In this document: one piece after another, positions 5,822 to 45,299 of the stretch
How positions within the stretch are numbered: the stretch's first letter is position 1
How the letters are laid out: every line of letters starts with the position of its first letter
Assembly (NCBI GenBank): GCA_022784465.1
Contig: JALFUR010000006.1
Span: forward strand, 30,921-94,920
Direction: 5' to 3'
Source: Christensenella sp.
GTDB taxonomy: Bacteria > Bacillota > Clostridia > Christensenellales > UBA3700
Length of the DNA: 64,000 bases
Notes under the pieces: model-generated
Seen by the model: only the letters and a program-made list of their open reading frames with translations
Database searches by the model: none
What the model was told of the DNA's origin: nothing
Made by a program: the position numbers and the translations under genes

Positions 5822-6092
5822 CAGCTACTCGACCTAATTATTTTAGGGCGAATAGCTGCTGCTTCGCGGTACCACCTAATTTCACTCATAAAGAGCCTCT
5901 TTTCACTTCACGTCATTGTAAAGCTAACACCTGTAACGGGCTGTACCCGGATTCCCTACTCTCTTGCGATTTCAGTTCACAACTTCTGAGTGTTATTCAA
6001 TTTAGGCTATCGATGGTTTTTCACTATCACCAACTCACTGTGCATAGTTGACTAAATCTACTTGTCTCAGTCACCGTCTTTATTTAATATGG
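5822..6092 (-). promoter_or_regulatory. T-box riboswitch, asparagine type, upstream of asnB
   Basis: On the minus strand the leader contains the T-box core TTAGGTGGTACCGCG (about 5867-5881). This is followed by a terminator whose arms, CAGCTATTCG...TTAG and its partner, lie in 5822-5860 and end in a T-rich tract. The 5' part has Stem I elements (GACGGTGACTGAGACAAGTA near 6060-6080). Between them the segment GAATAACACTC offers AAC (Asn) as the specifier codon. Uncharged tRNA-Asn would stabilise the antiterminator and switch asnB on. The T-box core is certain; the specifier assignment is by eye. Confidence 0.93.
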
Positions 6093-6253: not shown

Positions 6254-7867
<1,614 letters not shown>

Positions 7868-10800
7868 TTATACCTCGATTTCTCCATTATATACAGTTTC
7901 AGCGCTACCGGTCATATATACAACATCGTCATCTGTATATCTTATTGTAAGATCTCCACCAAGTAGTTTGACTGTTATGTCCTCATTTCTCTTACAATAT
8001 CCATTTAAAACGGCAGCTACAGCACTAGCACATGCGCCAGTTCCGCAAGCCCAAGTTTCGCCACTTCCTCTTTCCCAAACTCTCATTTTTAAAGTATGGT
8101 CATCAACCACTTTAATAAATTCTGTATTTACTCTCTCTGGGAATAGTGGATCGTTCTCGAAAATTGGTCCTATTTTTTCAATGTCCAGATTATCTACGTT
8201 GCTTACAAATGTTACACAATGAGGATTCCCCATAGAAACACATGTAATCTTGTAATCTTTTCCATTGATTGTGTATAGTTCATTTATCATAGATTTTCCA
8301 TTGAACTTTATTGGAATCTTCTTTGGATCAAGTTCTGCCTTTCCCATGTTTACAGTTACTGCATTAACTTCTCCATAAACAGTCTGAACTTTTACATCTT
8401 TAATTCCTGATAAAGTTTCAATTTTAAATTCTTTTTTATGAACAATATTGTTATCATAGCAATATTTTGCTACGCATCTTATACCATTTCCACACATTTT
8501 TCCTTCAGAGCCATCAAGGTTAAACATTCTCATTTTTGCATCAGCAACATCTGAATCGCAAATTAAGATAACTCCATCTCCTCCAATTCCAATGTGTCTA
8601 TCTGATAATCTTACAGATAATTCTTCTGGATTATCTAGCACGTTGTTATTTGTACAATCAAAATAGATGTAGTCATTTCCGCAACCTTGCATCTTTGTAA
8701 ATGGTCTTTTTTGTTTGTGCTTATGAAGCTTATTGATATCAATAAGTTCTGTATTGTATTCTGTATATCTACTCAATAGACTATTAGCAACAGCAGCAGC
8801 TGTATCAATAGAAGTTAAGCAAGGAATTGCTCTTTCTACAGCTTTTCTTCTAATCTTTACACTGTCTCTTGTTGGAAGTTTACCTTTCGATGATGTGGAT
8901 ATAATATAGTTAATTTTTCCTGTTTCAAGTAATGTTAAGGAATTGTGTATAGGATCTTCGTGAATCTTATTTACTATATTTACTTCAAGCCCAATATCTC
9001 TAAGAATTCTTGCTGTTCCTTCTGTTGCATAGATGTTGTAACCTAAATCAGAGAACTTTTGTGCGATTTCTCCAATTTCAGCTTTATCTGTTTGTCTAAC
9101 AGTAATAAATACACCGCCCTTTTTCTCAAGTTTATATCCAGCAGCGATTAGTCCCTTATAAATTGCCTCTTCTTGAGTTGTAGCAATACCAAGTACTTCT
9201 CCAGTAGACTTCATCTCTGGTCCTAAATGAGTATCTACATTTATTAATTTTTCAAAGCTAAATACTGGAATCTTTACAGCAACATATGGAGAGTTTGGAT
9301 ACAATCCTGTTCCAAATCCTAAATCTTTTAATTTTTCACCTAAGATACATTTTGTTGCCAAATCTACCATTGGAACACCTGTAACTTTAGAAATGTATGG
9401 AACTGTTCTTGAAGATCTTGGATTTACTTCAATAATGTATAACTCATTTTTATAAATTAAATATTGGATATTTACAAGACCAATTGTATGAAGTTCAAGT
9501 GCCAAACTCTTTGAGCATTCGATTATTCTATTTATCATTTCGTCTGTAAGACCAAATGCAGGATAAACAGCAATACTATCACCTGAGTGAACACCAGTTC
9601 TTTCAACGTGTCTCATAATACCTGGGATTAAAATGTCCTCTCCATCGCAAATAGCATCAACCTCAAGTTCTGCTCCCATTAAATATTGGTCAATAAGTAC
9701 TGGGTTTTCAATTCCTTGCGACAAAATTACGTCCATGTATTCAATTACGTCTTCATCGCTGTTACAAATGGTCATGTTTTGACCACCAAGTACATATGAA
9801 GGTCTAAGCAATGTTGGATAGCCAATTTCATTTGCAACTTTTAAAGCTTCTTCTTTCGTCATAACTGTATATCCTACAGGACGCTTTATCTTCAACTTCT
9901 CTAAAAGTTCATCAAACAATTCTCTATCTTCAGCCATATCGATGTATTCTATTTGAGTACCAAGAATTTTAACATCCATATTCTTTAGCATTTTTGTTAA
10001 CTTAATTGCTGTTTGTCCACCAAAAGCAACAACAACGCCATATGGCTTTTCCGTTTCAAGAATATTTATTACATCCTCATTTGTTAATGGCTCAAAATAC
10101 AATCTATCTGCTGTGTCAAAATCTGTAGATACTGTTTCTGGGTTATTATTTACAATAACAACCTCGTATCCTGCTTTCTTTAACGACCAAACACAGTGAA
10201 CTGAAGCATAGTCAAACTCGATTCCTTGGCCAATTCTTATTGGGCCAGCACCAAATACTATTACTTTTTTCTTGTCAGATTTCCTTTTTTCTATAAACTC
10301 TGCTGCTTCATTTTCATCATCATATGTTGAATAGAAATATGGAGTTTGAGCTTCAAACTCTGCAGCACAAGTATCTACCATTTTATATACTGCATGTCTC
10401 TTGTTCTTAATTTTTTGATTAGAAAACTCTTCTATTGTTTTATCTAAAAAGCCTAATTTCTTTGCTTCTAGATATAATTCATCTGTTAGTTCCTCTTTTT
10501 GCAATCTATTTTGCATTTGAACTAATTTCGAAAGTTTTGCTATAAACCATTTATCTATTTTTGTCTTTCTATTAATCTTCTCAATAGAAACTCCTCTTTT
10601 TAAGCTCTCATATACACAGAAGATTCTCTCATCGTCTACATCGTACAACTTTTGTGCTAATTCTACATCATCCATTGCCATAAACTTTGGATCATTAAAT
10701 GTGTCATGAGAAATTTCAGCTCCACGAACAGCTTTCATAATAGCCTGTTCAAAAGTAGGAGCTATGGCCATAACTTCTCCTGTTGCCTTCATTTGTGTTC

Positions 10801-11917
10801 CAAGTTTTCTACTTGCATAGAAGAACTTATCAAAAGGCCATTTTGGATACTTTACAACCACATAGTCTAATGCTGGTTCAAAACAAGCATATGTTGTTCC
10901 TGTTACGGCATTTTTAATTTCGTCAAGTGTATATCCTATTGAAATTTTTGTAGCTACTTTAGCAATTGGATATCCTGTTGCTTTTGATGCTAAAGCGGAA
11001 GATCTACTAACACGTGGGTTTACTTCAATAACTGCATATTCAAACGAATCTGGATTTAATGCAAATTGACAGTTACATCCACCCTCTATCTTTAAAGCAT
11101 CAATTATGCTTAAAGCAGCAGATCTTAGCATTTGGTATTCCCTATCTGCTAAAGTAACAGCTGGAGCAATTACTATACTATCTCCTGTATGCACACCAAC
11201 AGGGTCAAAGTTTTCCATTGAACAAATAGTAATAACATTACCAGCGCTATCTCTCATTACTTCAAATTCTATTTCTTTCCAACCTGATATACATTTTTCA
11301 ACAAGAATTTGATGTATTGGAGAACTTCTTAATCCGTTTTGTGCAATCTCTATAAATTGATCTTCATCATTACAAATTCCACCACCAGTTCCTCCTAGTG
11401 TAAATGCTGGACGAACTATAACTGGATAGCCAAGTTTTCTTGCAACTTCAATTGCTGAATCAATATCGTTAACAACCTCTGATGGAATTGTTGGTTGATT
11501 TATAGATGCAAGTGTATCTTTGAATAATTGTCTATCTTCTGCCTTATCAATGGTGTCTGGTCTTGCTCCTAAAAGCTTAACTCCCATTTTGTCTAAAAAT
11601 CCTTCTTTTGCAAGCTGCATAGAAAGAGTTAATCCAATTTGTCCTCCCATTGTTGAAAGTAAACTATCTGGTCTTTCTTTTTCAATTATTCTCTTTATTG
11701 TTGTAATTGTTAAAGGTTCAATATAAATTCTATCTGCAACCGCATGATCGGTCATAATTGTAGCAGGATTTGAGTTTACAAGAACAACTTCAAGTCCGTC
11801 TTCTTTTAAAGCTTTACAAGCCTGTGTTCCAGCATAGTCAAACTCTGCTGCTTGTCCTATAATAATTGGGCCGGAGCCAATAACCATAACTTTTTGAATA
11901 TCTTTTCTTAGTGGCAT
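7868..11917 (-). CDS. carB-dapF: Fusion of carbamoyl-phosphate synthase large subunit and diaminopimelate epimerase
   Basis: This is a single uninterrupted 1349-residue frame. Residues 1 to about 1070 are a complete CarB: two ATP-grasp halves (SGPIIIGQAAEFDYAG and GAGPIRIGQGIEFDYA starts), an oligomerisation domain and a C-terminal MGS-like allosteric domain ending near YTEYNTELIDINKLHK. Residues about 1071-1349 (DNA about 7868-8707) are a full-length DapF beginning RPFTKMQGCGNDYIYF. Both epimerase cysteines are present (KMCGNGIRC and TWACGTGAC). There is no stop, start or ribosome-binding site at the joint. CarB makes carbamoyl phosphate with CarA; DapF makes meso-DAP for lysine and peptidoglycan. 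The pathways share no step, so this is an unusual fusion. The start overlaps the carA stop (TAATG). Confidence 0.93.
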   Translation of the reverse strand: MPLRKDIQKVMVIGSGPIIIGQAAEFDYAGTQACKALKEDGLEVVLVNSNPATIMTDHAVADRIYIEPLTITTIKRIIEKERPDSLLSTMGGQIGLTLSMQLAKEGFLDKMGVKLLGARPDTIDKAEDRQLFKDTLASINQPTIPSEVVNDIDSAIEVARKLGYPVIVRPAFTLGGTGGGICNDEDQFIEIAQNGLRSSPIHQILVEKCISGWKEIEFEVMRDSAGNVITICSMENFDPVGVHTGDSIVIAPAVTLADREYQMLRSAALSIIDALKIEGGCNCQFALNPDSFEYAVIEVNPRVSRSSALASKATGYPIAKVATKISIGYTLDEIKNAVTGTTYACFEPALDYVVVKYPKWPFDKFFYASRKLGTQMKATGEVMAIAPTFEQAIMKAVRGAEISHDTFNDPKFMAMDDVELAQKLYDVDDERIFCVYESLKRGVSIEKINRKTKIDKWFIAKLSKLVQMQNRLQKEELTDELYLEAKKLGFLDKTIEEFSNQKIKNKRHAVYKMVDTCAAEFEAQTPYFYSTYDDENEAAEFIEKRKSDKKKVIVFGAGPIRIGQGIEFDYASVHCVWSLKKAGYEVVIVNNNPETVSTDFDTADRLYFEPLTNEDVINILETEKPYGVVVAFGGQTAIKLTKMLKNMDVKILGTQIEYIDMAEDRELFDELLEKLKIKRPVGYTVMTKEEALKVANEIGYPTLLRPSYVLGGQNMTICNSDEDVIEYMDVILSQGIENPVLIDQYLMGAELEVDAICDGEDILIPGIMRHVERTGVHSGDSIAVYPAFGLTDEMINRIIECSKSLALELHTIGLVNIQYLIYKNELYIIEVNPRSSRTVPYISKVTGVPMVDLATKCILGEKLKDLGFGTGLYPNSPYVAVKIPVFSFEKLINVDTHLGPEMKSTGEVLGIATTQEEAIYKGLIAAGYKLEKKGGVFITVRQTDKAEIGEIAQKFSDLGYNIYATEGTARILRDIGLEVNIVNKIHEDPIHNSLTLLETGKINYIISTSSKGKLPTRDSVKIRRKAVERAIPCLTSIDTAAAVANSLLSRYTEYNTELIDINKLHKHKQKRPFTKMQGCGNDYIYFDCTNNNVLDNPEELSVRLSDRHIGIGGDGVILICDSDVADAKMRMFNLDGSEGKMCGNGIRCVAKYCYDNNIVHKKEFKIETLSGIKDVKVQTVYGEVNAVTVNMGKAELDPKKIPIKFNGKSMINELYTINGKDYKITCVSMGNPHCVTFVSNVDNLDIEKIGPIFENDPLFPERVNTEFIKVVDDHTLKMRVWERGSGETWACGTGACASAVAAVLNGYCKRNEDITVKLLGGDLTIRYTDDDVVYMTGSAETVYNGEIEV

Positions 11918-12996
11918 TATCTTACTCCTCCCATTCTTTGTATAAATTGATCAAACAAGAATCTTGTATCTAGTGGACCAGCACATGCTTCTGGATGGAA
12001 TTGAACAGAAAATGCATTAGTCTTTAAATAATTAACACCTTCCACTGTTCCATCGTTTGCGTTTATAAAACTAATTTGTGCAACATCACTTGCTAAAGAT
12101 TCTGGGTCAACTGCATATCCATGATTTTGTGTTGTTATATATACTCTAGATGTAGACAAATCTTTTACAGGTTGATTTGCTCCTCTATGACCATATTTCA
12201 ATTTATAAGTGTCTCCTCCATGAGCTAATGCTAACAATTGATTTCCTAAGCAAATACCAAATACGCTCAAGTTTGTATTTAATAGTTTTTTAATTTGTTC
12301 AATTTCATAAACGTTTTCTTTAGGATCTCCTGGGCCATTAGACAACATTACCCCATCTGGATTAACTTTCATAATATCTTCAAAGGAAGTATTATGAGGC
12401 ATTATATAAACTTGGCAATTTCTCTTTAAAAGTTCTTTTGCAATGTTTCCTTTAACACCATAGTCCATTAATACAACTTTTTTATCTACTTTTTCTGGAG
12501 TTAATATTTCAACTTCTTTGCACGAAGTTGCGGCAACTGCGCCTAAAACTTTATAATCACGAAGCTTTTGCATTTTTTCTTCGGTTATATCCTTAGTGAA
12601 AGAAACCATACCATTCATTACGCCGTGATCTCTAACAATTTTTGTTAATTTACGAACATCAATGCCTTGAATTCCTATTACATTGTTTTCTTTTAAGAAA
12701 GTATCTAAGTCGCCTTGGCTTCTGAAATTCGAAGGAAAATCACATACATCGCGAACGATATATGCTTTGTGGTAAACTTTTTTGCTTTCAAAATCTGATG
12801 GGATTACACCATAGTTGCCAATTAATGGGAATGTCTGAACTACAATTTGACCATAATAACTTGGATCTGTAAGGGTCTCTAAATAACCAGTCATTGCTGT
12901 GGTAAAAACAACTTCGCCAATTACTTCTCCCTCTACTCCAAAGCTTTGGCCTTCAAAGATTTCTCCGTTTTCAAGAATTAAATAAACTTTTTTCAT
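11917..12996 (-). CDS. carA: Carbamoyl-phosphate synthase small (glutaminase) subunit
   Basis: The protein has 359 residues. The N-terminal CPSase small-chain domain (LILENGEIFEGQSFG) is followed by a class-I glutamine amidotransferase with nucleophile motif SVFGICLGNQ (about 241-250) and FHPEACAGP (about 334-342) for the His-Glu pair. It hydrolyses glutamine and channels ammonia to CarB, feeding pyrimidine and arginine synthesis. It lies 18 bp downstream of the ANTAR gene and overlaps carB by one base. Confidence 0.97.
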   Translation of the reverse strand: MKKVYLILENGEIFEGQSFGVEGEVIGEVVFTTAMTGYLETLTDPSYYGQIVVQTFPLIGNYGVIPSDFESKKVYHKAYIVRDVCDFPSNFRSQGDLDTFLKENNVIGIQGIDVRKLTKIVRDHGVMNGMVSFTKDITEEKMQKLRDYKVLGAVAATSCKEVEILTPEKVDKKVVLMDYGVKGNIAKELLKRNCQVYIMPHNTSFEDIMKVNPDGVMLSNGPGDPKENVYEIEQIKKLLNTNLSVFGICLGNQLLALAHGGDTYKLKYGHRGANQPVKDLSTSRVYITTQNHGYAVDPESLASDVAQISFINANDGTVEGVNYLKTNAFSVQFHPEACAGPLDTRFLFDQFIQRMGGVR

Positions 12997-13014: not shown

Positions 13015-13581
13015 TTATTCATATATGTCTAAAACGGCCTTCGCGATTTCTTTTCTTGTTCGTCTTTGATTCATCGCAGTTTTTTCAATATGCTTATGCG
13101 CATCTTCCTCGCTCATATGTTCGTGAATAATAAGTGCACATTTTGCCCTATCTACTAGTTTTAGTTCCTCAATCTTGTCTTCTAACTTCCTGTTTTTCTT
13201 TAAAAGATTTTCAAATCTTTCGTTCATTGCTCTAAAAATTGATAGACTTTTCATTAACAATAATAGTGATACAGGTTTTGGTAAAACTAGAACTCCGTTA
13301 CTCTCCAACTTTGACTCGACAGCCTCACGAATATCCGATTTTACTAATAGTATCACATTAGTGATATTATTATCAAGCGCGAAAAGGGATAAATCACTGC
13401 CAAATTCGTCCTCAAGTGGAGCATTAATTATAACCATCGAAAAAGGTTGCGCGCCAAGCATTCTTCTCGCTTCACTTCCATTTGTAACTCTTTGGATGTT
13501 TAAAAATCCAGCAGACTTAATAACCTGCGTGATTTCTTGTGGAATCTCTCCTTTTGAAACGAAAAGTAACGTGTCTAGCAT
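13015..13581 (-). CDS. ANTAR-domain RNA-binding regulator with degenerate receiver domain
   Basis: The protein has 188 residues. The C-terminal part (about 125-186, DRAKCALIIHEHMSEEDAHKHI and AMNQRRTRKEIAKAVLD) is a clear ANTAR domain, a three-helix RNA-binding module that prevents transcription termination at leader terminators. A coiled-coil linker precedes it. The N-terminal 115 residues fold like a response-regulator receiver, but the phospho-acceptor Asp is Asn (MVIINAPLEDEFG), the acidic pair after strand 1 is absent (LLFVSKG), and the conserved Thr/Ser is Val. Only the Lys (LPKPVS) remains. Phosphorylation control is therefore unlikely. It sits 4 bp after the GS-like gene, so the two are probably translated together. 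Likely targets are the terminator leaders at 19914, 20240 and 22435 (inference). Confidence 0.88.
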   Translation of the reverse strand: MLDTLLFVSKGEIPQEITQVIKSAGFLNIQRVTNGSEARRMLGAQPFSMVIINAPLEDEFGSDLSLFALDNNITNVILLVKSDIREAVESKLESNGVLVLPKPVSLLLLMKSLSIFRAMNERFENLLKKNRKLEDKIEELKLVDRAKCALIIHEHMSEEDAHKHIEKTAMNQRRTRKEIAKAVLDIYE

Positions 13582-13585: not shown

Positions 13586-14860
13586 TTAAACTCTACCAAA
13601 ATATCTTTCTGTTAAATATTTGTGCTTGTCTCCAGATGACTCAACATCTTCAATTTCTTTCTTCTTATATGCAATTATTTGTTTAAACAACGAATCAGGA
13701 AGTACACTCTTAACAAATTCGCTGTTTTCTGCCAATTCTATTGCTTCATGTAAATCTTGAGGTAAAGATAAAGCTCCATCACTTTCATCTAATTTATGTT
13801 CGATTTTGTTTTCTAAAACCATATTTTGTTTTAGACCCTCAAGACCTGCCATCAAAAGTAATGCGTATACAATGTAAGGATTACATGATGGATCTGCAGA
13901 ATTAATTGTTGCTTTGTATTTTCCAATTTTTATAACTTGGTTAAATCTTTGAGATGCCCAAGCTACATATTTTGGAGAACTTTCTGATTGGAATCTTTCA
14001 TAAGAATTTGGCATTGGATTCATAAACAATGCAATTTCTCTCAATCTATTCAATATTCCAGCTAAGAAGGATTTTACTTCTACACTATCTATATCGCAAA
14101 TTTCTAATCCCTTTAGTAAAGATATATTTATCTTTAAACCGCTTCCTTCTTTGTCTTTTAATGGCTTAGGTAAAAATGATGCATATAAGCCATTAGATGC
14201 AGAAATTGACTTAACTGTTGTCTTAAATGTCATTACGTCATCTGCAGCTTTTAGCGCATCATTATAATTAAATCTAATTTCGTTTTGTCCTGGACCTTTT
14301 TCGTGATGTGATGAGGTAGGTTTTAGTCCTAATCTTTCAAGAGTAAAACAGATCTCTCTTCTAACATTTTCACCTTTATCTAATGGAGCTACATCTAAAT
14401 AGCCTGCTCTATCAAAAGGAATATTAGTTGGTTGACCTTTTTCGTCTAATTCAAATAAATAAAATTCGCAATCTGAGCCAATTGTACACTTATATCCTAA
14501 TTTCTTTAATTCCTTTTCTGCTTGTTGAAGCAAACTTCTTGAATCGCATTCAGCAACTGTACCATCAGGGTATTTTAAATTGGAATATAATCTTATAACA
14601 GAACCATGTTGTGGTCTCCATGGTAGTACTTGTATTGTTGATGGATCTGGGAATAATCTTATATCTCCTTTGTCATAAGAAGCAATTCCATCAAAAGCTT
14701 CAGCATCAATGGATATGCCCTTTTCAAAAACATCTTCGATTTCAGAAGCAAGAACAGAAATATTCTTTAAATTTCCCAAAATATCGCAGAATGTTAATTT
14801 GACAAACTTAACATCATTCTCCTGAATAAAATCCATAACTTCTCTAATTGTTTGATTCAT
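13586..14860 (-). CDS. Glutamine synthetase-like protein, probably catalytically inactive
   Basis: The protein has 424 residues and the type I GS fold (beta-grasp N-terminus, then catalytic barrel with DPSCNPYI and NSYERF). Aligned by eye to E. coli GlnA, key residues are changed. Glu129 is Asp130 (SDCEFYLF). His269 and His271 are Lys243 and Asn245 (GSGLKINISL, usually GSGMHxHxSL). Glu357 and Arg359 are Thr318 and Asn320 (KATINSADPS). The Glu327 flap is lost (QSESSPKY). The n1 metal ligands (Glu132, Glu187, Glu194) and Arg289 remain. Loss of the n2 metal site and flap argues against synthesis of glutamine; the cell has a complete type III GS at 20321. I infer a substrate-sensing role paired with the ANTAR gene 4 bp downstream. 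Confidence 0.75.
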   Translation of the reverse strand: MNQTIREVMDFIQENDVKFVKLTFCDILGNLKNISVLASEIEDVFEKGISIDAEAFDGIASYDKGDIRLFPDPSTIQVLPWRPQHGSVIRLYSNLKYPDGTVAECDSRSLLQQAEKELKKLGYKCTIGSDCEFYLFELDEKGQPTNIPFDRAGYLDVAPLDKGENVRREICFTLERLGLKPTSSHHEKGPGQNEIRFNYNDALKAADDVMTFKTTVKSISASNGLYASFLPKPLKDKEGSGLKINISLLKGLEICDIDSVEVKSFLAGILNRLREIALFMNPMPNSYERFQSESSPKYVAWASQRFNQVIKIGKYKATINSADPSCNPYIVYALLLMAGLEGLKQNMVLENKIEHKLDESDGALSLPQDLHEAIELAENSEFVKSVLPDSLFKQIIAYKKKEIEDVESSGDKHKYLTERYFGRV

Positions 14861-14902: not shown

Positions 14903-15625
14903 TTAATTACTTACATATAATTGTTTATACGGATTTTTACTATTAGCTTCAAGAACATAAAAGCTCTTTTTCATAATATCCGATTTTTTTGCTCCAAAAT
15001 AATCACAATATTCTGAAACATATTTTTCAATTTCTACTATATCTTTTTCATTTGCCTTATGGCAAACGATTTGACTTGGAAGTTCCGGAACAGTATCACA
15101 TCTTAATATAATTTTTCCACCATGCATTCCATTTCCAGTAAAATAACCGACTATTTTATCGTTTTCAACACCAATGCCTAGAACTATTATAACACCACCA
15201 GCTTGATATTCGCCCAAGAAACTTCCCGCTTTTCCGCCTATTACTAAAATAGGATATTTTTCCTTATAAGCTTTCATGTGAATTCCTGCTCTATATCCAG
15301 CATTTCCTTCAATGAAAATCTTTCCGCCTCTCATAGCATATCCAGTAGCATCACCTGAATTTCCTCTGATTATTATTACTCCATCATTCATTGTATCGCC
15401 AACAGCATCTTGCGCAGAACCCATAACCTCGATTCTGCAACCATTTAAATACGAGCCAAGAGCGTTTCCAGGAGTTCCTTCAATAACAACATTCTTGCCA
15501 CCAACACCAGAACATATGTATCTATGTCCCATACAATTAATAATTTTTATGTTCTTTTCTTCAGATTCTCTTACTTCTTTACAAATTTCCTGAAAATCCT
15601 TTCCGTTGCAATCAATAATTTTCAT
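14903..15625 (-). CDS. Glutamate synthase GXGXG (alpha-subunit C-terminal) domain protein
   Basis: The 240-residue protein has tandem beta-helix turns rich in G-x-x-x-G (GTPGNALGSYLNGCRIEVMG, MRGGKIFIEGNAGYRAGIHM). This is the GXGXG structural domain that forms the C-terminus of large glutamate synthases. Here it is a free-standing polypeptide, part of the split archaeal-type glutamate synthase encoded in this operon. It overlaps the FAD gene stop by one base (TAATG). A C-terminal stretch (about 200-240) beyond the helix is of unknown role. Confidence 0.88.
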   Translation of the reverse strand: MKIIDCNGKDFQEICKEVRESEEKNIKIINCMGHRYICSGVGGKNVVIEGTPGNALGSYLNGCRIEVMGSAQDAVGDTMNDGVIIIRGNSGDATGYAMRGGKIFIEGNAGYRAGIHMKAYKEKYPILVIGGKAGSFLGEYQAGGVIIVLGIGVENDKIVGYFTGNGMHGGKIILRCDTVPELPSQIVCHKANEKDIVEIEKYVSEYCDYFGAKKSDIMKKSFYVLEANSKNPYKQLYVSN

Positions 15626-16860
15626 TAATGCGACCTCCCAAGAATGTATTCTCTCTTTTCCTTTTTAAATGCCATCAATTGAGGAGCAACTCTAATCAAT
15701 GAATAATCAAGTTCTTTTAAATCTGTCTTGCTCCTAACTAGCGATGTATATATACCAGCTCTTGATATATCTCCAATCATAATGAAACCTTTAAGAACAT
15801 TATCTTTTGTAAATAATACCTTATAATTTTTTCCATCATCGCACACAACGTCTTTATCTCCAATATAACTACCAGCGGTAACTACATGTAGATTAAAAAA
15901 TCCAATTGAGTTCATAGGTAGCCCCTGATCAAAACTGCTTTCTACCCCTGCCATTGTTCTACCTGCTGCGCGACCTAAAAAATATGCATTTGGTAGTATT
16001 GCAACAATTCTATCTGTATCGCAAGAGATATCATGACAAACACAATTATCTCCGCCAGCATAAATGTCTTTTATAGACGTTCTAGAGCAATTATCTATAA
16101 CTATACCTTTTTCAACTTTTCCTCCGATATCGCTTAGAAGCTGAACGTTTGGTCTAACTCCTACCGCCGTTACAAGAATGTCAAAATCAACCTTCTTTTC
16201 AGATTTTAATATCGCAGTATTTTTGTCAAACTTTGCAACGCTGTCAGATAAAATAAATTCAACGCCCAAAGATTCTAGATAAGTTTTTATATACTCGCTA
16301 CCTCTTGAATCTAATATGCTTGGCAACACTCTATCTGCTAAATCTACAACAGTAATTTTGTCTACTCTATCTTTAATACCCTCTACACATTTTAATCCTA
16401 TCAAACCGGCACCAACTACTAGCACCTTTGAATCTTTAGTTAACACTTTCTCTAGCGAAAGAGCATCATCAAGCGTCATAAAAGAAAATCTATTTTTAAC
16501 ATTTTCAATGCCTTCCATTTTTGGTAAAAAAGGAACAGAACCAGTTGCTAACATTAATTTTTCATAAGGAATAATTTGATTATTACTCAATACAACTTCC
16601 TTTTTTTCTTTATTTATTGCAGTTGCTCTTACTCCTAATATCGTTTCAACTTTATTGTTTATATAATAGTCTTTATCTCTATAATCAATCTTGTCTAATG
16701 AAGTCTTTCCCATTAATAAATAAGAAATTAATGGACGTCCATAGACAAAATGATTTTCCTCCCCAATTACAGTAATTGAGCCTTCTTTGTCTATTTCTCT
16801 TATACCCTCAATACAACCACATGCAGCAATTGAATTTCCAATAATAACATACTTTGCCAT
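15625..16860 (-). CDS. FAD-dependent pyridine nucleotide oxidoreductase of the split glutamate synthase
   Basis: I start at 16860 (MAKYVIIGNSIAACGC), which has GGAGAG upstream; the ORF track starts 24 bp earlier. The protein has about 411 residues. The N-terminal FAD-binding motif GNSIAACGCIEG, an NAD(P)-binding motif VVGAGLIGLKCVEG (about 143-156) and the DIYAGGDNC motif (about 270) mark a nitrite reductase/NADH oxidase-like flavoprotein. In this operon it most plausibly passes electrons from NAD(P)H to the ferredoxin and FMN subunits of glutamate synthase. It replaces the usual GltD beta subunit; this is inference from context. Confidence 0.85.
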   Translation of the reverse strand: MAKYVIIGNSIAACGCIEGIREIDKEGSITVIGEENHFVYGRPLISYLLMGKTSLDKIDYRDKDYYINNKVETILGVRATAINKEKKEVVLSNNQIIPYEKLMLATGSVPFLPKMEGIENVKNRFSFMTLDDALSLEKVLTKDSKVLVVGAGLIGLKCVEGIKDRVDKITVVDLADRVLPSILDSRGSEYIKTYLESLGVEFILSDSVAKFDKNTAILKSEKKVDFDILVTAVGVRPNVQLLSDIGGKVEKGIVIDNCSRTSIKDIYAGGDNCVCHDISCDTDRIVAILPNAYFLGRAAGRTMAGVESSFDQGLPMNSIGFFNLHVVTAGSYIGDKDVVCDDGKNYKVLFTKDNVLKGFIMIGDISRAGIYTSLVRSKTDLKELDYSLIRVAPQLMAFKKEKREYILGRSH

Positions 16861-16864
16861 ATCT

Positions 16865-17293
16865 TTATCTCTCCTCATATACAATTGCTCTATTTGGGCA
16901 ACCCTTTACACAAGCTGGTTCACCGCAAGCATTTTTGGTGCATAGTTCACACTTTTGCATTGGGCCCTCATCGCTTGGCATTATAGCTCCAGCAGGGCAT
17001 GCCATTACACAACTAAAACAACCAACACATTTTTCTTTATCTATGCAAATTAGTCCATCTTTAATACTAAGCGCTCCTGCAATACATGAACGAACACATA
17101 CTGGGTCTTCGCACTGTCTACATTGAACAGCAAAAGACACTCCGTTTAAAGTTTCAACTCTAACTCTAGGATTTATCTTTACCCCTTTTAAAGCTTTAAC
17201 CATATCTTCTTTACCTGAATTTGCAAATGCACAATTGTATTCACAAAGTCTACATCCTAAACACCATTTTTCATTTACATAAATTCTTTTCAT
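16865..17293 (-). CDS. Multi-cluster 4Fe-4S ferredoxin subunit
   Basis: I start at 17293 (MKRIYVNEKWCLGC), preceded by AGGTGA at good spacing; the ORF track starts 15 bp upstream. The protein has 142 residues and four Cys clusters (CLGCRLCEYNC, CRQCEDPVCVRSC, CVGCFSCVMAC, CELCTKNACGEPACVKGC). It resembles the HycB/CooF-type electron-transfer subunits. It likely relays electrons between the FAD subunit and the FMN/Fe-S synthase. Its stop is followed 4 bp later by the FAD gene start, and it overlaps the upstream FMN subunit gene only at the alternative start. Confidence 0.88.
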   Translation of the reverse strand: MKRIYVNEKWCLGCRLCEYNCAFANSGKEDMVKALKGVKINPRVRVETLNGVSFAVQCRQCEDPVCVRSCIAGALSIKDGLICIDKEKCVGCFSCVMACPAGAIMPSDEGPMQKCELCTKNACGEPACVKGCPNRAIVYEER

Positions 17294-17294
17294 A

Positions 17295-18800
<1,506 letters not shown>

Positions 18801-18801
18801 A

Positions 18802-19896
18802 TTAACGATCCTCCTTTTTGTTCAAATTAACAATTACTGGTTCTCCACCTCTTGGAGCCCAAATATTTTTAATATTTGGCTCTAGCACTCTTATAGCACA
18901 TTCTTCTGATGCAATATATGTCGTATTTCCCTTTTCGCCTACAACCATACTTCTTAATTTCAATCTGTCGTTTAGTGCCATAAGTCCGCCGTTATATCCT
19001 ACAATAATAGAAAATGGACCAGTGATTAACAAGCTTGAAAACATGTTTCTTAAGTATTCAAACTTTTCTCTTTCCTTTTCTGGCTTTGATGCAATTGTAG
19101 ACCAGAATGGTGCAGCAATAACTGATGCCATTTCTTCCATAGACAATTTTTGACGTCTAACTAAATAATCTACAATGTAGGCAATAACTTCTGTATCTGT
19201 CATTAAAGTGCATTTATAGCCAAACATTTCAATAAATCTTCTGTTTGCATCATAAGAAGATATTTCTCCATTATGAACAACTGAGTAGTCTAATATGCCG
19301 AATGGATGAGCGCCTCCCCACCAACCAGGAGTGTTTGTTGGATATCTTCCATGCGCAGTCCAGCAATATCCTTCATATTCGTCTAAGCGATAATACTCGC
19401 CAACGTCTTCTGGGAAACCAACAGCTTTAAAAATGCCCATATTCTTTCCGCTAGAAAAAACATATGCGCCTTTTATTTGTGTATTAATTTTCATAACGCT
19501 TCTAGCAACGAATTCCTTTTCTTCTAAATTAGTTTCAAGCAATCTAGCGTCCAAAGGATTAACGAAATATCTATAAATTAGAGGCTCATCTGTAATCCCT
19601 TTAGTTTTTCTTGTTGGAATCATAGACATATTTATAATTGCATAGTTTTGATATAAATATTGTTCACATTCTTGTCTAGATATATTTGAATCAAAGAAAA
19701 TGTGAAATGCATATAAATCTTTGTATTGGGGATATATTCCATATCCTGCAAAACCACCGCCAAGACCATTGGATCTATCGTGCATAGTAGCAATAGATTT
19801 TATAATTGCTGAACCATTAATAGCTTCTCCATCTTTATTAATGATTCCACAAATTGCACAACCTGATGGTATTCTTACTTCTCCTTCTTTTAACAT
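18802..19896 (-). CDS. Glutamate synthase amidotransferase (class II, GltB N-terminal-type) subunit
   Basis: I start at 19896 (MLKEGEVRIPSG), with AAAGGAG upstream; the track's extra 27 residues would translate the leader terminator. The class-II nucleophile is probably the Cys of CGIINKDG, so a short propeptide of about 15 residues would have to be removed, as in other Ntn enzymes. Later motifs (HGRYPTNTPGWWGGAHPFG, VVHNGEISSYDANR) are typical of the GltB1 glutaminase. It releases ammonia for the FMN subunit encoded next. First gene of the nitrogen operon, behind the leader terminator at 19914-19973. Confidence 0.92.
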   Translation of the reverse strand: MLKEGEVRIPSGCAICGIINKDGEAINGSAIIKSIATMHDRSNGLGGGFAGYGIYPQYKDLYAFHIFFDSNISRQECEQYLYQNYAIINMSMIPTRKTKGITDEPLIYRYFVNPLDARLLETNLEEKEFVARSVMKINTQIKGAYVFSSGKNMGIFKAVGFPEDVGEYYRLDEYEGYCWTAHGRYPTNTPGWWGGAHPFGILDYSVVHNGEISSYDANRRFIEMFGYKCTLMTDTEVIAYIVDYLVRRQKLSMEEMASVIAAPFWSTIASKPEKEREKFEYLRNMFSSLLITGPFSIIVGYNGGLMALNDRLKLRSMVVGEKGNTTYIASEECAIRVLEPNIKNIWAPRGGEPVIVNLNKKEDR

Positions 19897-19913
19897 ACCA
19901 TTTACTCCTTTAA

Positions 19914-19973
19914 ACAACAAAAAAAGGAAAAGGTGCCAAATCGCACATACGACTTGAACACCTTTGTCCTTTT
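19914..19973 (-). promoter_or_regulatory. Leader terminator with alternative hexaloop hairpin (glt operon)
   Basis: On minus, AAAAGGACAAAGGTG pairs with CACCTTTTCC and is followed by a long T tract: an intrinsic terminator between promoter and first gene. Its 5' arm can instead form GGAC-AAAGGT-GTTC, a hairpin with a six-base loop having A at position 1 and G at position 4. Those are the loop bases ANTAR proteins recognise. A second small hairpin (TCG-TATGTG-CGA) lies inside the terminator loop. Terminator: seen. ANTAR control: inference. Confidence 0.7.
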
Positions 19974-19978
19974 GCATT

Positions 19979-20008
19979 AGTGTAATTTAAATCCTTTTGT
20001 CATGTCAA
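19979..20008 (-). promoter_or_regulatory. Probable promoter of the glt-gln-car-pyr operon
   Basis: TTGACA (20003-20008, minus) lies 18 bp from TACACT (19979-19984). A start about 6-7 bp downstream would begin almost directly at the leader terminator. The -10 match is imperfect. Confidence 0.6.
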
Positions 20009-20187
20009 TATTTTTTTACAAAAATTATTTGAAAAAATCCTACTTTTGCAAATTAATATTGATTAAATTCTTAAGTCTTTTTTATATAATTTTTATTAAA
20101 AAAATTTTATCTATATAGAGCTTTAAAAAGATTTTTTTAGCTCATTTTTCCAAGAAAAATTTTTTTTGAAAAACTTGTATTTTAATA

Positions 20188-20216
20188 TTGACAACAAAAA
20201 AATATGTTCGTATAAT
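20188..20216 (+). promoter_or_regulatory. Sigma-A-type promoter of glnN
   Basis: TTGACA (20188-20193) and TATAAT (20211-20216) are both perfect with a 17-bp spacer. It is divergent from the glt operon promoter about 180 bp away. The rest of the intergenic stretch is very AT-rich and I see no further signal in it. Confidence 0.9.
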
Positions 20217-20239
20217 GATGCCATAAATTATAAATGAAT

Positions 20240-20280
20240 TGCAAAGGCGCGTTTAGTGTTGATCTAAATGGCGCCTTTTT
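20240..20280 (+). promoter_or_regulatory. Leader terminator with alternative hexaloop hairpin (glnN)
   Basis: AAAGGCGC (20243-20250) pairs with GCGCCTTT and is followed by TTTTT, forming a terminator about 40 bp before the glnN start codon. The 5' arm can refold as TGC-AAAGGC-GCG (20240-20251), again a hexaloop with A1 and G4. The loop of the terminator contains TTTAG...CTAAA. Readthrough must occur for glnN to be made, so regulated antitermination is likely. Confidence 0.7.
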
Positions 20281-20320
20281 CATTTGTTGAAGAATAAACA
20301 AAGAAAGGAGAATATATTAA

Positions 20321-22408
20321 ATGAGTACATCAGAAATTTTTGGTAGCAACGTTTTTAACGATGCGGTTATGCAAGAAAAGTTGCCAAAAGCAACATATAA
20401 AGAATTAAAACAATGTATAGCAAATAATAAGTCTATACCTTTAGATCTTGCTCAAGTTGTTGCCAATGCAATGAAGGACTGGGCAATTGAAAAAGGTTGC
20501 ACACACTACACTCACTGGTTCCAACCAATGACAGGTATTACTGCAGAGAAACATGATGCATTTATTCAGCCTTCAAGTGATGGAAAAGTAATTATGGAAT
20601 TTTCCGGTAAAGAATTAGTTAAAGGTGAGCCTGATGCTTCTTCTTTCCCTTCTGGCGGAATTCGTGCTACTTTCGAAGCAAGAGGTTATACAGCATGGGA
20701 CCCTACAGCTTTTGCATTTGTAAAAGATTCATCTTTATACATTCCTACAGTATTTTGTTCATATACTGGAGAAGTTTTAGATAAGAAGACTCCACTTTTA
20801 AAATCTATGCAAGCTGTTTCTACGCAAGCATGTAGAATACTAAAATTATTTGGAAAAGATGTAGATAAAGTTACATCAGAAGTAGGACCTGAACAAGAAT
20901 ATTTCTTAGTAGATAAATCAGTATATGAAAAAAGACCAGATTTAGTTTTCACTGGAAGAACACTATTTGGTGCTCCAGCTCCAAAAGGACAAGAACTTGA
21001 AGATCACTATTTTGGTGCAATTAAGGAAAGAGTTGCTTCATACATGAAAGAACTTGATGAAGAACTATGGAAACTTGGAATTTATGCTAAGACAAAACAC
21101 AACGAAGTTGCTCCAGCTCAACATGAGCTTGCTCCAATTTATGGAGATTCAAACACAGCAACAGATCATAACCAATTAACAATGGAGATTATGAAAAAAG
21201 TTGCTTCAAGACATGATATGGTTTGTCTATTACATGAAAAACCATTTAAAGGAGTAAATGGATCTGGTAAACATAACAACTGGTCTATGTCAACATCATC
21301 AGGTGAAGGATTATTTAAACCAGGCGACACACCAGAAGAAAACTTACAATTCTTATTATTCTTAGCTGCAACAATTAAAGGTGTAGATGAATATCAAGAT
21401 TTATTGAGAGTATCTGTAGCAACAGCAGGCAATGATCATAGATTAGGCGCAAACGAAGCCCCTCCTGCTATTGTATCTATGTTCTTAGGTGATGAATTAG
21501 CTGGTATTGTTGATGCTATTGCTGAAGGTAGAAGTTATTCAAAACGTGCAAAATGCGCTTTTGAATTAGGCGTAGATGTACTTCCTACATTCATTAAGGA
21601 TACAACAGATAGAAATAGAACATCTCCATTTGCTTTTACTGGAAACAAATTTGAATTCAGAATGCTAGGTTCTTCCCTATCTATTGCTGGTCCAAACATT
21701 ATTCTAAATACAATGATGGCAGAAGAATTAGAAGAATTTGCTGATATACTTGAAAAAGCAAGTGACTTTACAAGTGCTGTTAAAGATTTAATCAAGAAGA
21801 CTATTATTGAACATAGAAGAATAATCTTCAATGGAAACGGTTATTCTGATGAATGGGTTAAAGAAGCTGAAAAACGTGGCTTACTAAACATTAAGTCTAC
21901 TCCTGAAGCAATTCCTCTATTTAAGGCAGAGAAGAATATTAAACTATTTGAAAAACATGGTGTATTTACTCCAGCTGAAGTCATTTCAAGAACAGAGATT
22001 CTTTTAGAGAACTATTCAAAGATTATTGATATTGAAGCAAATACAATGATTGAAATGACAAAGAAAGAAGTATTACCTGCTGAACTTGAATACATAAAAG
22101 AATTAGCTAAGACAATTTCTAAAGCAACAAGCATTTGTGATTGCATTGATATGTCTAGTGAAAAAGAACAATTAAAAACTGTAACTGATTTATATAACAA
22201 GGCCTATAAAGCAGTAAATGAATTAATTGCAGCTGTTGATGAAGCACAAGGCATTAGCGATGGCGAAGCTCAAGCACTAGCATTTAGAAAGAGTGTATTT
22301 GAGAAGATGGAAGAATTAAGAACTTATGTTGACGCAATGGAAGTTAATACTGCAAAGAAGTATTGGCCATATCCAAGTTATGGTGACATGTTGTTCTCTG
22401 TTAAATAA
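20321..22408 (+). CDS. glnN: Type III glutamine synthetase
   Basis: The 695-residue length is characteristic of GSIII. Conserved blocks are present, including EVGPEQEYFLVD (about 187-198), KHNEVAPAQHELAPIYGDSN (about 264-283), GVNGSGKHNNWSMSTS (about 311-326) and RNRTSPFAFTGNKFEFR (about 428-444). It fixes ammonium into glutamine with ATP and, unlike the GS-like gene at 13586, keeps its catalytic motifs. It has a strong promoter, a leader terminator and an AAGGAG ribosome-binding site. It is followed by amt-PII, so ammonium import and fixation are adjacent. Confidence 0.97.
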   Translation: MSTSEIFGSNVFNDAVMQEKLPKATYKELKQCIANNKSIPLDLAQVVANAMKDWAIEKGCTHYTHWFQPMTGITAEKHDAFIQPSSDGKVIMEFSGKELVKGEPDASSFPSGGIRATFEARGYTAWDPTAFAFVKDSSLYIPTVFCSYTGEVLDKKTPLLKSMQAVSTQACRILKLFGKDVDKVTSEVGPEQEYFLVDKSVYEKRPDLVFTGRTLFGAPAPKGQELEDHYFGAIKERVASYMKELDEELWKLGIYAKTKHNEVAPAQHELAPIYGDSNTATDHNQLTMEIMKKVASRHDMVCLLHEKPFKGVNGSGKHNNWSMSTSSGEGLFKPGDTPEENLQFLLFLAATIKGVDEYQDLLRVSVATAGNDHRLGANEAPPAIVSMFLGDELAGIVDAIAEGRSYSKRAKCAFELGVDVLPTFIKDTTDRNRTSPFAFTGNKFEFRMLGSSLSIAGPNIILNTMMAEELEEFADILEKASDFTSAVKDLIKKTIIEHRRIIFNGNGYSDEWVKEAEKRGLLNIKSTPEAIPLFKAEKNIKLFEKHGVFTPAEVISRTEILLENYSKIIDIEANTMIEMTKKEVLPAELEYIKELAKTISKATSICDCIDMSSEKEQLKTVTDLYNKAYKAVNELIAAVDEAQGISDGEAQALAFRKSVFEKMEELRTYVDAMEVNTAKKYWPYPSYGDMLFSVK

Positions 22409-22434
22409 AACATTATTACTTATCATATTATAAA

Positions 22435-22477
22435 CACAAAGATGTGCTCTTACCTTTAGGGCACATCTTTCTTTTTC
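22435..22477 (+). promoter_or_regulatory. Intergenic terminator with alternative hexaloop hairpin before amt
   Basis: AAAGATGTGC pairs perfectly over 10 bp with GCACATCTTT, followed by CTTTTT, 27 bp before the amt start codon. The 5' arm can form CAC-AAAGAT-GTG with a six-base A1/G4 loop, the same design as in the glt and glnN leaders. It both ends glnN and gates readthrough into amt. Confidence 0.7.
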
Positions 22478-22503
22478 GAATTAAAATTTTGGAGGATAAA
22501 TAT

Positions 22504-24303
22504 ATGGAAGAATTATTGCAAGCTTTTCCTGCACTAAGTGAGATTACTGGTTCATTAGATGCGACTTGGATCTTAGTTGGAATCACTTTAGTATTTTTCA
22601 TGCAATGTGGATTCGCAATGGTAGAAACTGGTTTCACACGTGCAAAGAATGCAGGAAACATTATTATGAAAAACTTGATGGATTTTTGTCTTGGTGCAAT
22701 CGCATTCTGGTTAATTGGATACTCAATTATGATTGGCCATCTTATAAATCCTATTACTATGACATATGTTGTAGATGGTGTTACTGAGAATGTTGACATG
22801 CTACACTTTATGTTCTTCTTAGTCTTCTGTGCTACAACAGCTACTATTGTATCTGGAGCTATGGCAGAAAGAACAAGATTTATTACATATTGTGTATATA
22901 GTGTTTGCATTTCAGCCTTCATCTTCCCTGTTACAGGTAACTGGATTTGGAATGGTGGATTCTTATCTCAATGGGGCTTCCATGATTTTGCAGGATCTAC
23001 AGCAGTTCATATGATTGGTGGTATCCTTGCTTTAATCGGTGCATGGATGCTAGGCCCAAGAATTGGTAAATATAAGAAATTAGAAAATGGAAAATTAGAA
23101 TCTAAAGCTATTCCTGGACACAGTTTAACTCTTGGTGCATTAGGTGTATTCATCCTATTCTACGGATGGTATGGATTCAATGGTGCAAGTGAATATGCTA
23201 TTGTTGGTGCAGAAACAGCAGCAAATGTATCTTTAGTATTTGTTACTACAACTATGGCACCAGCCGTTGCTACAACTACTGTTATGATCATTACATGGAT
23301 TAGATATAAAAAGCCTGATGTTTCTATGACATTAAATGGAACACTTGCTGGTCTTGTTGCTATTACAGCAGGATGTGATCAAGTTTCTGTATTTGGTGCA
23401 GTATGTATTGGTTTATTAGCCGGTTTTGTCGTTGTATTTGGTATTGAATTTTTGGATCAAAAATTGCATGTTGATGACCCAGTAGGTGCTGTTGGTGTTC
23501 ACTGCTTCAATGGTGCTTTAGGAACAGTGCTAACAGGCGTATTTAGTATAAATGGTATATATGGTGCTATTACAAAAAATGTAACAGTTAGCGAAGGATT
23601 TAAATTTTTTGGAATTCAAGTAGCTGGTGTTGCTATATGTGCTGTCTTCACTATTGCTTGTGGTTTAGTATTATTCTTCATTTTAAAGAAGACATTAAAA
23701 CTAAGAGTTACAAAGGAAGAAGAAATTTTAGGTCTAGATTTAACAGAGCATGGTCTTGTAAGTTCTTATGCAGACTTTATGCCTACAGTTGCTGGTGAAT
23801 CATTAACTGGTTCAATGGATAAAGGTGAAATGGCTACACAAGAGGTTGTTAAATCTAAAGATGAAGTATTTGATGTTAATAAGCCTTTAACAGTTGATGA
23901 ATCTGTTCCTGTTAAGAAGGTTACTACTTCAATTGGAAAAGAAGGTCCAAAGATGAGTAAAATTGTAATTTTAGCAAACCCAGCTAAATTTGAAGATTTG
24001 AAAAAAGCTATGGATGGAATTGGAATTACAGGTATGACAGTTACTAATGTAACAGGATGCGGATTACAAAAAGGTGATACAAACAATTACTATCGTGGTG
24101 TTAAAGTTGATATTTCATTACGTCCAAAGATAAAGATGGAACTTGTTGTATCAAAGATCCCTGTAGAAACAGTAATTATGGCAGCAAAAAATGCTCTTTA
24201 TACAGGTAACTATGGTGATGGAAAAATATTTGTCTACGATGTTGATAATGTCTATAAAGTTCGTACTGGCGAATGGGACTATGCAGCATTGCAAGATGAA
24301 TAG
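22504..24303 (+). CDS. Ammonium transporter fused to a PII signalling domain
   Basis: I start at 22504 (MEELLQAFPALSE), with GGAGGA upstream; the track start at 22444 would lie inside the terminator hairpin. Of about 599 residues, roughly 1-410 form an 11-helix Amt/AmtB channel (VETGFTRAKNAGNIIMKN, DFAGSTAVHMIGG). After an acidic linker of about 75 residues, residues about 490-599 form a PII (GlnB) domain (MSKIVILANPAKFEDLKKAM, NYYRGVKVDISLRPKIK, GDGKIFVYDVDNVYKVRTGE). In separate systems PII plugs AmtB under nitrogen sufficiency; here gate and sensor are covalently joined. The T-loop lacks the uridylylated Tyr of E. coli GlnB (VKV in place of EYM). Confidence 0.93.
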   Translation: MEELLQAFPALSEITGSLDATWILVGITLVFFMQCGFAMVETGFTRAKNAGNIIMKNLMDFCLGAIAFWLIGYSIMIGHLINPITMTYVVDGVTENVDMLHFMFFLVFCATTATIVSGAMAERTRFITYCVYSVCISAFIFPVTGNWIWNGGFLSQWGFHDFAGSTAVHMIGGILALIGAWMLGPRIGKYKKLENGKLESKAIPGHSLTLGALGVFILFYGWYGFNGASEYAIVGAETAANVSLVFVTTTMAPAVATTTVMIITWIRYKKPDVSMTLNGTLAGLVAITAGCDQVSVFGAVCIGLLAGFVVVFGIEFLDQKLHVDDPVGAVGVHCFNGALGTVLTGVFSINGIYGAITKNVTVSEGFKFFGIQVAGVAICAVFTIACGLVLFFILKKTLKLRVTKEEEILGLDLTEHGLVSSYADFMPTVAGESLTGSMDKGEMATQEVVKSKDEVFDVNKPLTVDESVPVKKVTTSIGKEGPKMSKIVILANPAKFEDLKKAMDGIGITGMTVTNVTGCGLQKGDTNNYYRGVKVDISLRPKIKMELVVSKIPVETVIMAAKNALYTGNYGDGKIFVYDVDNVYKVRTGEWDYAALQDE

Positions 24304-41674: not shown

Positions 41675-41704
41675 ATTATTCACCTCGAATATATTGTAGC
41701 ACAC

Positions 41705-42001
41705 CAGTCTGTTAATTCCAACGCTTTTCAGGTAGAATTTCGTGTTTTCTTCGCGTTTTCTTCGCGTTTCTTTCGTATTTCTTCGTGTTTTTCAACAAAA
41801 CACACAGGAAATACACCATAATTATTGGATAATCATACCCGACGTGGTAAAGGAAATGAGAGAATCCGATCCCAAATCGGTGATAACCTATGCCCTAATT
41901 AAAGAGTTAATCTAACAAAAGAAACTCACTGCAATGAAATACGGAAATGTTTGGCTCGTTAACCTTGACGAGCTATATTTTCACTTTCGAGGGAACAAAA
42001 A
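41705..42001 (+). other. Intergenic segment with short repeats and a gene fragment
   Basis: Around 41740-41800 there are tandem TTTTCTTCGCG-like units. From about 41820 to the TAA at 41915 a plus-strand frame encodes WIIIPDVVKEMRESDPKSVI then TYALIKELI. It looks like the C-terminal end of a lost gene; I cannot name the family. Confidence 0.45.
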
Positions 42002-42265
42002 ATGAAAAACCTAATTACTTCCGGTAAGTTGCTAAAACTGTTTCTTGCTGAAGATGCAAACACAATTATTCGTCGACCAAACTGCCGAAAGTTTTGCCTT
42101 AACAACGACATATTTATGGAAATACACGAAAAGGCTTGGTTAATAGACATTGAAAACTTTATGAGAAAAGTCAACCCAAAATCAATGAGCGAACATTACG
42201 AAGTGCCACGTCTGAGAGTTCTTCGTTACTATGTAAATAGTTGGAACAAGCGTTATAAAAGGTGA
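42002..42265 (+). CDS. Small basic protein, possibly excisionase-like DNA binding
   Basis: An 87-residue ORF with GAGGGA eight bases upstream. The order KLFLAEDANTIIRRPNCRKFCLNNDIFMEI then IDIENFMRKV recalls the strand-turn-helix of small HTH_17/Xis-type proteins, but the match is weak. After its TGA stop the same frame continues for QIDKHDIEYLIKKRKDY before the next stop, so the ORF may be a truncated version of a longer one. It lies just outside the tRNA-Arg direct repeat. Confidence 0.4.
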   Translation: MKNLITSGKLLKLFLAEDANTIIRRPNCRKFCLNNDIFMEIHEKAWLIDIENFMRKVNPKSMSEHYEVPRLRVLRYYVNSWNKRYKR

Positions 42266-42537
42266 CAAATTGATAAGCACGACATAGAATATCTAATAAA
42301 AAAACGAAAAGATTATTAGTTTCAAACACGGTAACAGATAGGTGTTAAACTAAGACGAAGTACTAAAAGAATTCAAAATTTACGTCAAAACCTACAAAGG
42401 TCATACGAACGGAAAGAAAAAACGTAAAAAATAGAATTAGTAATGTAATTGGTAATGCGTTTTTTCGCGTTCATCTTTTCTCGTTTTCTATATATTGTGT
42501 CAAATAAAAAGAAAAAACCACAATGTATTGTGGTTTG
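42266..42537 (+). other. Decayed coding remnant next to the attachment repeat
   Basis: A plus-strand frame DEVLKEFKIYVKTYKGHTNG followed by KKKRKK and a stop at about 42434 looks like the basic C-terminus of a protein whose upstream part is broken by stops. No complete gene is seen. Confidence 0.4.
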
Positions 42538-42581
42538 TGGCGCACTCACCGGGAATCGAACCCAGAGCTAACCCTTAGGAG
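42538..42581 (-). repeat. Attachment-site direct repeat: 3' part of tRNA-Arg(CCT)
   Basis: 44 bp identical to 57897-57940, in the same orientation. It covers CCA, the 3' acceptor strand, T arm and variable region up to the anticodon loop (CTCCTAAGGG on minus). After that the sequence diverges from the tRNA. This is the expected distal att scar of an element integrated into tRNA-Arg(CCT). Confidence 0.9.
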
Positions 42582-42625
42582 TTTCAAAAATATGCAAAAA
42601 TGGATTCTAAACCGCAAATATAAGG

Positions 42626-43483: not shown

Positions 43484-43491
43484 AATTTCTC

Positions 43492-45281: not shown

Positions 45282-45299
45282 AGATATGCCCCCCTATAT

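Follow-up and report, generated by a model that had tools for sequence, protein, structure and literature searches.

A glutamine synthetase-derived pseudoenzyme is the likely sensory partner of an adjacent ANTAR antiterminator in a Christensenella genome

The stretch of DNA analysed here, referred to below as the window, covers 64,000 nt of contig JALFUR010000006.1 from a Christensenella sp. Its reverse strand encodes a 424-aa protein (13586..14860, -), identified by profile matches, residue alignment and an AF2 model compared with Foldseek as a pseudo-glutamine synthetase derived from GSI-alpha, which we call GSx. The next gene, starting 4 nt past the end of GSx, encodes an ANTAR-domain antiterminator of 188 aa with a degenerate receiver (13015..13581, -). 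GSx is preceded on the same strand by a split glutamate synthase (glt) operon. The first gene of this operon specifies the class-II amidotransferase-type subunit (GATase_2; 18802..19896, -), its ORF being open to 19977 and its likely start lying at 19896; the remainder (14903..18800, -) was assigned from profile matches to Glu_synthase (17295-18800, -), Fer4 (16865-17308, -), a pyridine nucleotide-disulphide reductase (15625-16884, -) and GXGXG (14903-15625, -). On the forward strand lie a type III glutamine synthetase (GSIII; 20321..22408, +; PF12437, PF18318), the candidate catalytic GS, whose presence nearby had been correctly stated in the initial annotation of this DNA, and an ammonium transporter gene, amtB, fused to PII and running from its presumed ATG (22504..24303, +; PF00909, PF00543). 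Downstream of the GSx-ANTAR pair and in the same orientation come carA, carB(-dapF) and pyrG (6254..12996, -), the last being named from its sequence; car and pyrG genes also follow the pair in many relatives.

The GSx sequence matches PF00120 (4e-72) and PF03951, and scores 285 bits against TIGR00653 (GlnA), far under the cut-off of 429. Its residues were read from an alignment with E. coli GlnA (L155), whose numbering is used below, and about 120 relatives. Metal ligands are changed by E129D, H269K and E357T, leaving incomplete the six-ligand set of active GSI-alpha (E129, E131, E212, E220, H269, E357). Further changes are E207T, N264E, H271N, R339F, R344K, R355K and R359N and, in the flap region, P324Q, G325S, Y326E and E327S. 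Residues D50, E131, E212, E220, G265 and R321 are unchanged, E131, E212 and E220 being the n1 ligands. The catalytic Glu-flap residue E327 and the phosphoryl-transfer arginines R339 and R359 are all missing. The alignment confirmed the initial report of E129D, H269K, E357T and R359N with conserved n1 ligands; R339F, R344K and E207T are losses beyond those listed there. The same annotation had counted H271N as a loss and described the E327 flap as absent. The substitution at H271 is real, but canonical GSI-alpha relatives also carry N; E327 is indeed gone, but the flap itself is present, shorter by 1 residue and devoid of the VPGYE sequence (canonical NSYKRLVPGYEAP vs GSx NSYERFQSESSP).

Profile alignment and structure prediction, proposed earlier as checks, left the residue losses standing and returned a confident GSI fold. 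The AF2 model has a pLDDT of 94 and was matched by Foldseek to subunits of GSI dodecamers with a TM of 0.93, so that GSx is predicted to retain both the GSI fold and the subunit architecture. The two nearest relatives of GSx (65% identical) have also lost E129, H269, E357, R359, R339 and E327. Since the losses are common to these relatives and belong to a clade-wide pattern missing from 29 canonical sister GSs, they are more than a chance event. The dN/dS between the two nearest relatives (L034 vs L035) is 0.093, indicating that the GSx lineage is under purifying selection. Judging from its sequence, GSx has very probably lost all GS activity. Its own genome (98% complete) holds two GSIII genes in total and no other GSI.

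The distribution of GSx was analysed in 297 genomes of the order, yielding about 120 GSI relatives with their flanks, and a tree was built without the active-site columns. GSx belongs to a clade of 90 members (SH-aLRT 100), in 88 of which an ANTAR gene lies directly downstream, as a rule at a spacing of 0-100 nt. The two exceptions are L096, with no ANTAR in the sequence examined, and L150, where the contig breaks off. Of the 90 clade members, 45 have lost one or more metal ligands and a further 33 have lost E327; the remaining 12 retain every catalytic residue scored and may be active enzymes. None of the 29 canonical sister GSs lost any scored residue. The phylogeny of homologs, suggested at the outset as a further check, thereby returned a well-supported clade with widespread losses. 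The lost ligands vary with the lineage: n2 ligands are gone from the window protein, H269 from other members, and n1 ligands (E131/E212/E220) from the class-level sequences L280, L282 and L283. Different lineages having lost different ligands, the common theme is the loss of activity rather than one special chemistry. Seven of the canonical sisters (L113, L116, L120, L132, L138, L148 and L106) are also found directly upstream of an ANTAR gene, which is possibly the ancestral enzyme-regulator state. Among the best relatives outside the order, all 28 testable ones are upstream of an ANTAR gene, and the gene pair is conserved across class Clostridia as far as these sequences reach. In L271 (79-2808), a canonical GS and a GSx stand in tandem before the ANTAR gene, which looks like a preserved duplication.

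With variation, the synteny around the pair reads: [GSIII, divergent] [glt operon] GSx-ANTAR [car, pyrG, purF]. Counted by hand, GSIII is present in 73/75 genomes whose only GSI is GSx vs 16/39 genomes with only canonical GSI (Fisher 1e-11). The two GSx-only genomes without GSIII are G080 (96% complete) and G117 (69% complete). In G080, neither GSIII nor any GSI other than GSx was found, which is explained either by an assembly gap or by a GSx that must be active. The GSx of this genome (L059) carries E327K with intact metal ligands.

The ANTAR domain of the downstream protein (PF03861; 9e-14, 51 bits) is an RNA-binding domain set on a coiled coil after the receiver. The predicted structure of the protein matches EutV and AmiR, AmiR 1qo0 being among the top matches. 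The GSx neighbour is the sole ANTAR protein found in its genome. The phospho-acceptor Asp of its receiver is replaced by N; the same position is substituted in 46/46 aligned ANTAR partners, with N in 34. Such a loss is expected if control is exerted by protein contact instead of phosphorylation. Mirror-tree partial correlations between the distances of GSx and of its ANTAR partner, beyond a control gene, were equivocal, at 0.56 with gltS but only 0.27 with GSIII as the control.

Likely RNA targets of this protein stand before the nitrogen genes of the window. The leader of the glt-GSx-ANTAR operon has a promoter-like site, TTGACA-18-TACACT (19979..20008, -), immediately followed by an ANTAR-type hexaloop hairpin, ggac[AAAGGU]guuc (19956..19969, -). 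The 5' arm of an intrinsic terminator (19928..19965, -; z = -5.0) begins at this hexaloop, and the two folds are mutually exclusive. In the GSIII leader, a perfect promoter-like site, TTGACA-17-TATAAT (20188..20216, +), is likewise followed at once by a hairpin, ugc[AAAGGC]gcg (20240..20251, +), whose hexaloop is overlapped by an intrinsic terminator (20243..20280, +; z = -3.9). A third hairpin of this type, cac[AAAGAU]gug (22435..22446, +), was read from the sequence of the GSIII-amtB gap, with an architecture as cacAAAGGCgtg in L039, L041 and L043; a terminator-like hairpin before amtB (22438..22470, +) overlaps its hexaloop. The amtB-PII fusion gene has in this way an ANTAR-type leader of its own. 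ANTAR proteins recognise a hexaloop with A1 and G4, and such motifs upstream of nitrogen genes were already described (PMC3369931). All three hexaloops of the window fit this rule and each forms the 5' arm of a terminator. Searches with Rfam, over the window at the gathering threshold and over 19850-22520 at E <= 1, placed no family on these leaders.

Across the sampled loci, 102 hexaloop hairpins were detected, whereas Markov shuffles gave 12-23. Of the 102, 76 lie no more than 400 nt ahead of a nitrogen or amidotransferase gene (glt, GSIII, amtB, pyrG, asnB, car or GSx), a nearness partly built in since the loci were chosen around GSx; 70 of these 76 overlap a terminator. Stem pairs 4, 5 and 6, not demanded by the search, are paired in 57, 50 and 41 of 68 hairpins, respectively, with several, compensatory pair types. 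A cleaner test than gene proximity is the comparison of GSIII leaders. With the strict motif, 12/30 leaders were positive in genomes encoding ANTAR vs 0/29 in genomes without it (p = 1e-4), and with a looser rule 17/30 vs 2/29 (p = 5e-5), both p values being optimistic because related genomes are not independent. The strict motif is missing from 18/30 GSIII leaders of the ANTAR genomes. Counting the regulon with the pattern CAAAGGCG...CGYYYTTTT over the 297 genomes was too noisy and was dropped for the GSIII-leader comparison. According to Walshe et al., the minimal ANTAR site consists of one hexaloop, yet two are held necessary for antitermination (PMC8934654). In the leaders inspected, there is no room for a second hexaloop (P1) between promoter and terminator and one hairpin fits; a scan for dual hairpins (P1+P2) returned mostly chance pairs. 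Control by a single hexaloop would here be a variant of ANTAR antitermination.

The strongest evidence for a regulatory role of GSx is the neighbouring ANTAR antiterminator together with its likely RNA targets, both missed by the initial annotation. We consider it likely that GSx is a GSI-alpha-derived pseudoenzyme and that it is the sensory partner of the ANTAR protein specified by the next gene. GSx is probably a sensor of nitrogen status rather than an enzyme, since its catalytic residues were lost and it was kept beside an ANTAR protein with likely targets before nitrogen genes. The earlier proposal of a dead GS kept and tied to regulation is supported by the purifying selection and by the neighbouring gene.

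As to the ligand, the GS of M. thermolithotrophicus (MtGS) and GlnA1 of M. mazei bind 2-oxoglutarate (2-OG) at F18, R20, R88, R174, R175 and S191 (MtGS numbering), a motif not present in B. subtilis GS (PMC10799026, PMC11957540). The corresponding pocket of GSx reads F19, K21, R82, R167, R168 and S184, with K in place of R20. In the clade (n = 90), F18 is found in 90 members, R or K at position 20 in 87, R88 in 90, R174 in 90, R175 in 89 and S191 in 88, the three exceptions at position 20 carrying I. At the class level, all positions are conserved in 29/29 sequences except R20 (28/29). In members that have lost metal ligands, the pocket columns other than R20 are all among the 9% most conserved, and those of the active site are scattered between the 13th and the 92nd percentile. 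The pocket residues sit at the subunit interface and most are conserved in canonical GSs too; only R88 discriminates, being present in 7/7 canonical GSs linked to ANTAR vs 10/22 unlinked ones. The ANTAR-linked canonical GSIs, in other words, all have the 2-OG pocket arginine.

GSx could instead be the partner of the regulator while sensing glutamine, or glutamate, in its old active-site cleft, in the manner of the feedback-inhibited B. subtilis GS with GlnR and TnrA. This precedent is established (PMC9249791) and the corresponding complexes are among the Foldseek matches of GSx; the window protein moreover keeps the substrate-site residues R321 and G265 together with the n1 ligands, all fairly well conserved in dead members. 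Against this, the window protein has lost E304/E327 and R62, which hold the feedback glutamine in B. subtilis GS (PMC9249791), and its N264, H269 and R359 are altered as well; the feedback arginine (B. subtilis R62, M. mazei R66) has disappeared from 89/90 clade members and from 29/29 sequences at the class level. We regard sensing in the cleft as unlikely. The "glutamine or ATP sensor" put forward initially fares poorly for the same reason, the phosphate-handling arginines and E207 of GSx being changed in addition. Because the 2-OG pocket is almost invariant while the glutamine-feedback arginine is lost, we prefer 2-OG to glutamine, and the ligand of GSx is probably 2-OG, with a confidence kept moderate by the fact that most pocket residues are interface residues as well.

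The circuit we propose for the GSx-ANTAR pair would work as follows. 2-OG, which rises at low nitrogen, would occupy the inter-subunit allosteric pocket of GSx, known from the methanogen GS, as a signal of nitrogen shortage. GSx would bind the ANTAR protein and hold or release it depending on its ligand state, as AmiC does with AmiR and NasS with NasT, so that 2-OG would lead to its release or activation. Once freed, the ANTAR protein would stabilise the 5'-terminal hexaloop hairpin of the transcripts of glt, GSIII and amtB; the overlapping terminator would then be blocked and ammonium assimilation increased. We infer the contact between the two proteins, the ligand binding and the RNA binding from the sequences. 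The direction of control follows NitR, which is reported to switch on GS/GOGAT genes when nitrogen is limiting (PMC6316151). A broader formulation, to which we give slightly less than an even chance, is that a class-wide family of Clostridia pseudo-GSs senses 2-OG and gates ANTAR antiterminators acting on single-hexaloop leaders of GSIII, glutamate synthase, amtB, pyrG, asnB and car, the old allosteric site having become the sensor once catalysis had passed to GSIII.

Alternatively, GSx might still ligate another amine, like GlnA3/GlnA4 or PuuA, its adjacency to ANTAR being mere co-regulation. The 12 clade members with a full residue set would agree with such an activity, and GS-like gamma-glutamylamine ligases exist (PMC5403932, PMC6529630). 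In the window, however, the n2 ligands, R339, R359 and E327 are missing together; the ANTAR partner was retained while lineages lost different metal ligands, and no substrate-pathway genes adjoin GSx except glt, car and pyrG. We hold this activity to be improbable and reject it as main explanation. GSx might also mainly form complexes with active GSIII or with PII, tuning enzyme activity independently of the ANTAR protein. GSIII and the amtB-PII fusion do adjoin GSx, and archaeal GS is bound by PII-type proteins (8tge), but across almost the whole clade it is the ANTAR gene, rather than GSIII or PII, that is linked to GSx, and the architecture of GSIII is different, making such complexes a very improbable main function. 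Decay into a pseudogene relic, to which the lost catalytic residues could point, is hardly credible and was refuted by the intact ORF, the dN/dS of 0.09 (L034-L035), the class-wide conservation and the confident fold.

The pairing of a sensor with an ANTAR protein is already known in kind; a pseudo-GS as the sensor would be new. In the Pseudomonas amidase operon, the small-molecule sensor AmiC is encoded with AmiR, an ANTAR protein bearing a pseudo-receiver, but AmiC has a periplasmic-binding-protein fold and the putative sensor described here a GS fold. Similarly, the nitrogen sensor NasS forms with the ANTAR antiterminator NasT a complex that is dissociated by ligand and controls nitrogen assimilation (PMC3795266), but NasS originates from a nitrate-binding protein and responds to nitrate/nitrite, whereas the putative sensor GSx originates from GS. 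For the present pair, this likeness is seen in the gene pairing and the pseudo-receiver. In B. subtilis, FBI-GS with GlnR and GS with TnrA also provide a GSI-alpha protein controlling a transcription regulator by direct contact. There, the GS is active and senses glutamine, and its partner is a MerR-type DNA-binding protein, whereas GSx appears dead and is paired with an RNA-binding antiterminator. The analogy with TnrA/GlnR drawn initially thus holds for a GS-type protein controlling a regulator and not for the type of partner, AmiC-AmiR and NasS-NasT being closer.

Other related regulators are NitR, an ANTAR antiterminator of the glnA-nitR-glt cluster of Clostridium saccharobutylicum, reported as an inducer of this cluster under nitrogen limitation (Stutz 2007, cited in PMC6316151), and Clo1313_2030 of C. 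thermocellum, encoded with the GS Clo1313_2031 in a GS-ANTAR-glt cluster (PMC4676874). Both are ANTAR antiterminators within a GS/GOGAT cluster and probably belong to the same regulator lineage, but the GS is treated there as an enzyme. Our literature search, whose scope did not extend to the original NitR study (Stutz 2007), found no description of a pseudo-GS/ANTAR sensor or of a pseudoenzyme role for the linked GS. EutV antitermination relies, as here, on A1 and G4 hexaloops over an intrinsic terminator and on nitrogen genes, but with dual hexaloops (PMC3369931, PMC8934654); our leaders have one hexaloop right behind the promoter and no P1, and the receiver has no usual phosphorylation site. 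Finally, the 2-OG-activated GSs of M. thermolithotrophicus and M. mazei share the inter-subunit pocket residues but are enzymes, whereas GSx has the pocket without the active site.

If correct, a dead GS acting as sensor would be a testable answer to how nitrogen status is sensed for the NitR-like ANTAR regulators of Clostridia. It would extend ANTAR control to a new sensor fold, and would mean that an enzyme became a sensor in several lineages by keeping its allosteric site and losing its active site. It would also be a caution that many Clostridia proteins annotated as glutamine synthetase are probably non-enzymes.

Elsewhere in the window, CarB (7868-11917, -) has an unusual C-terminal fusion to a diaminopimelate epimerase (PF01678, behind the MGS domain), and a T-box leader (Rfam RF00230) precedes asnB at 5841-6083 (-). 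The G+C content is 0.37-0.43 at 40001-56000 vs about 0.32 in the rest of the window.
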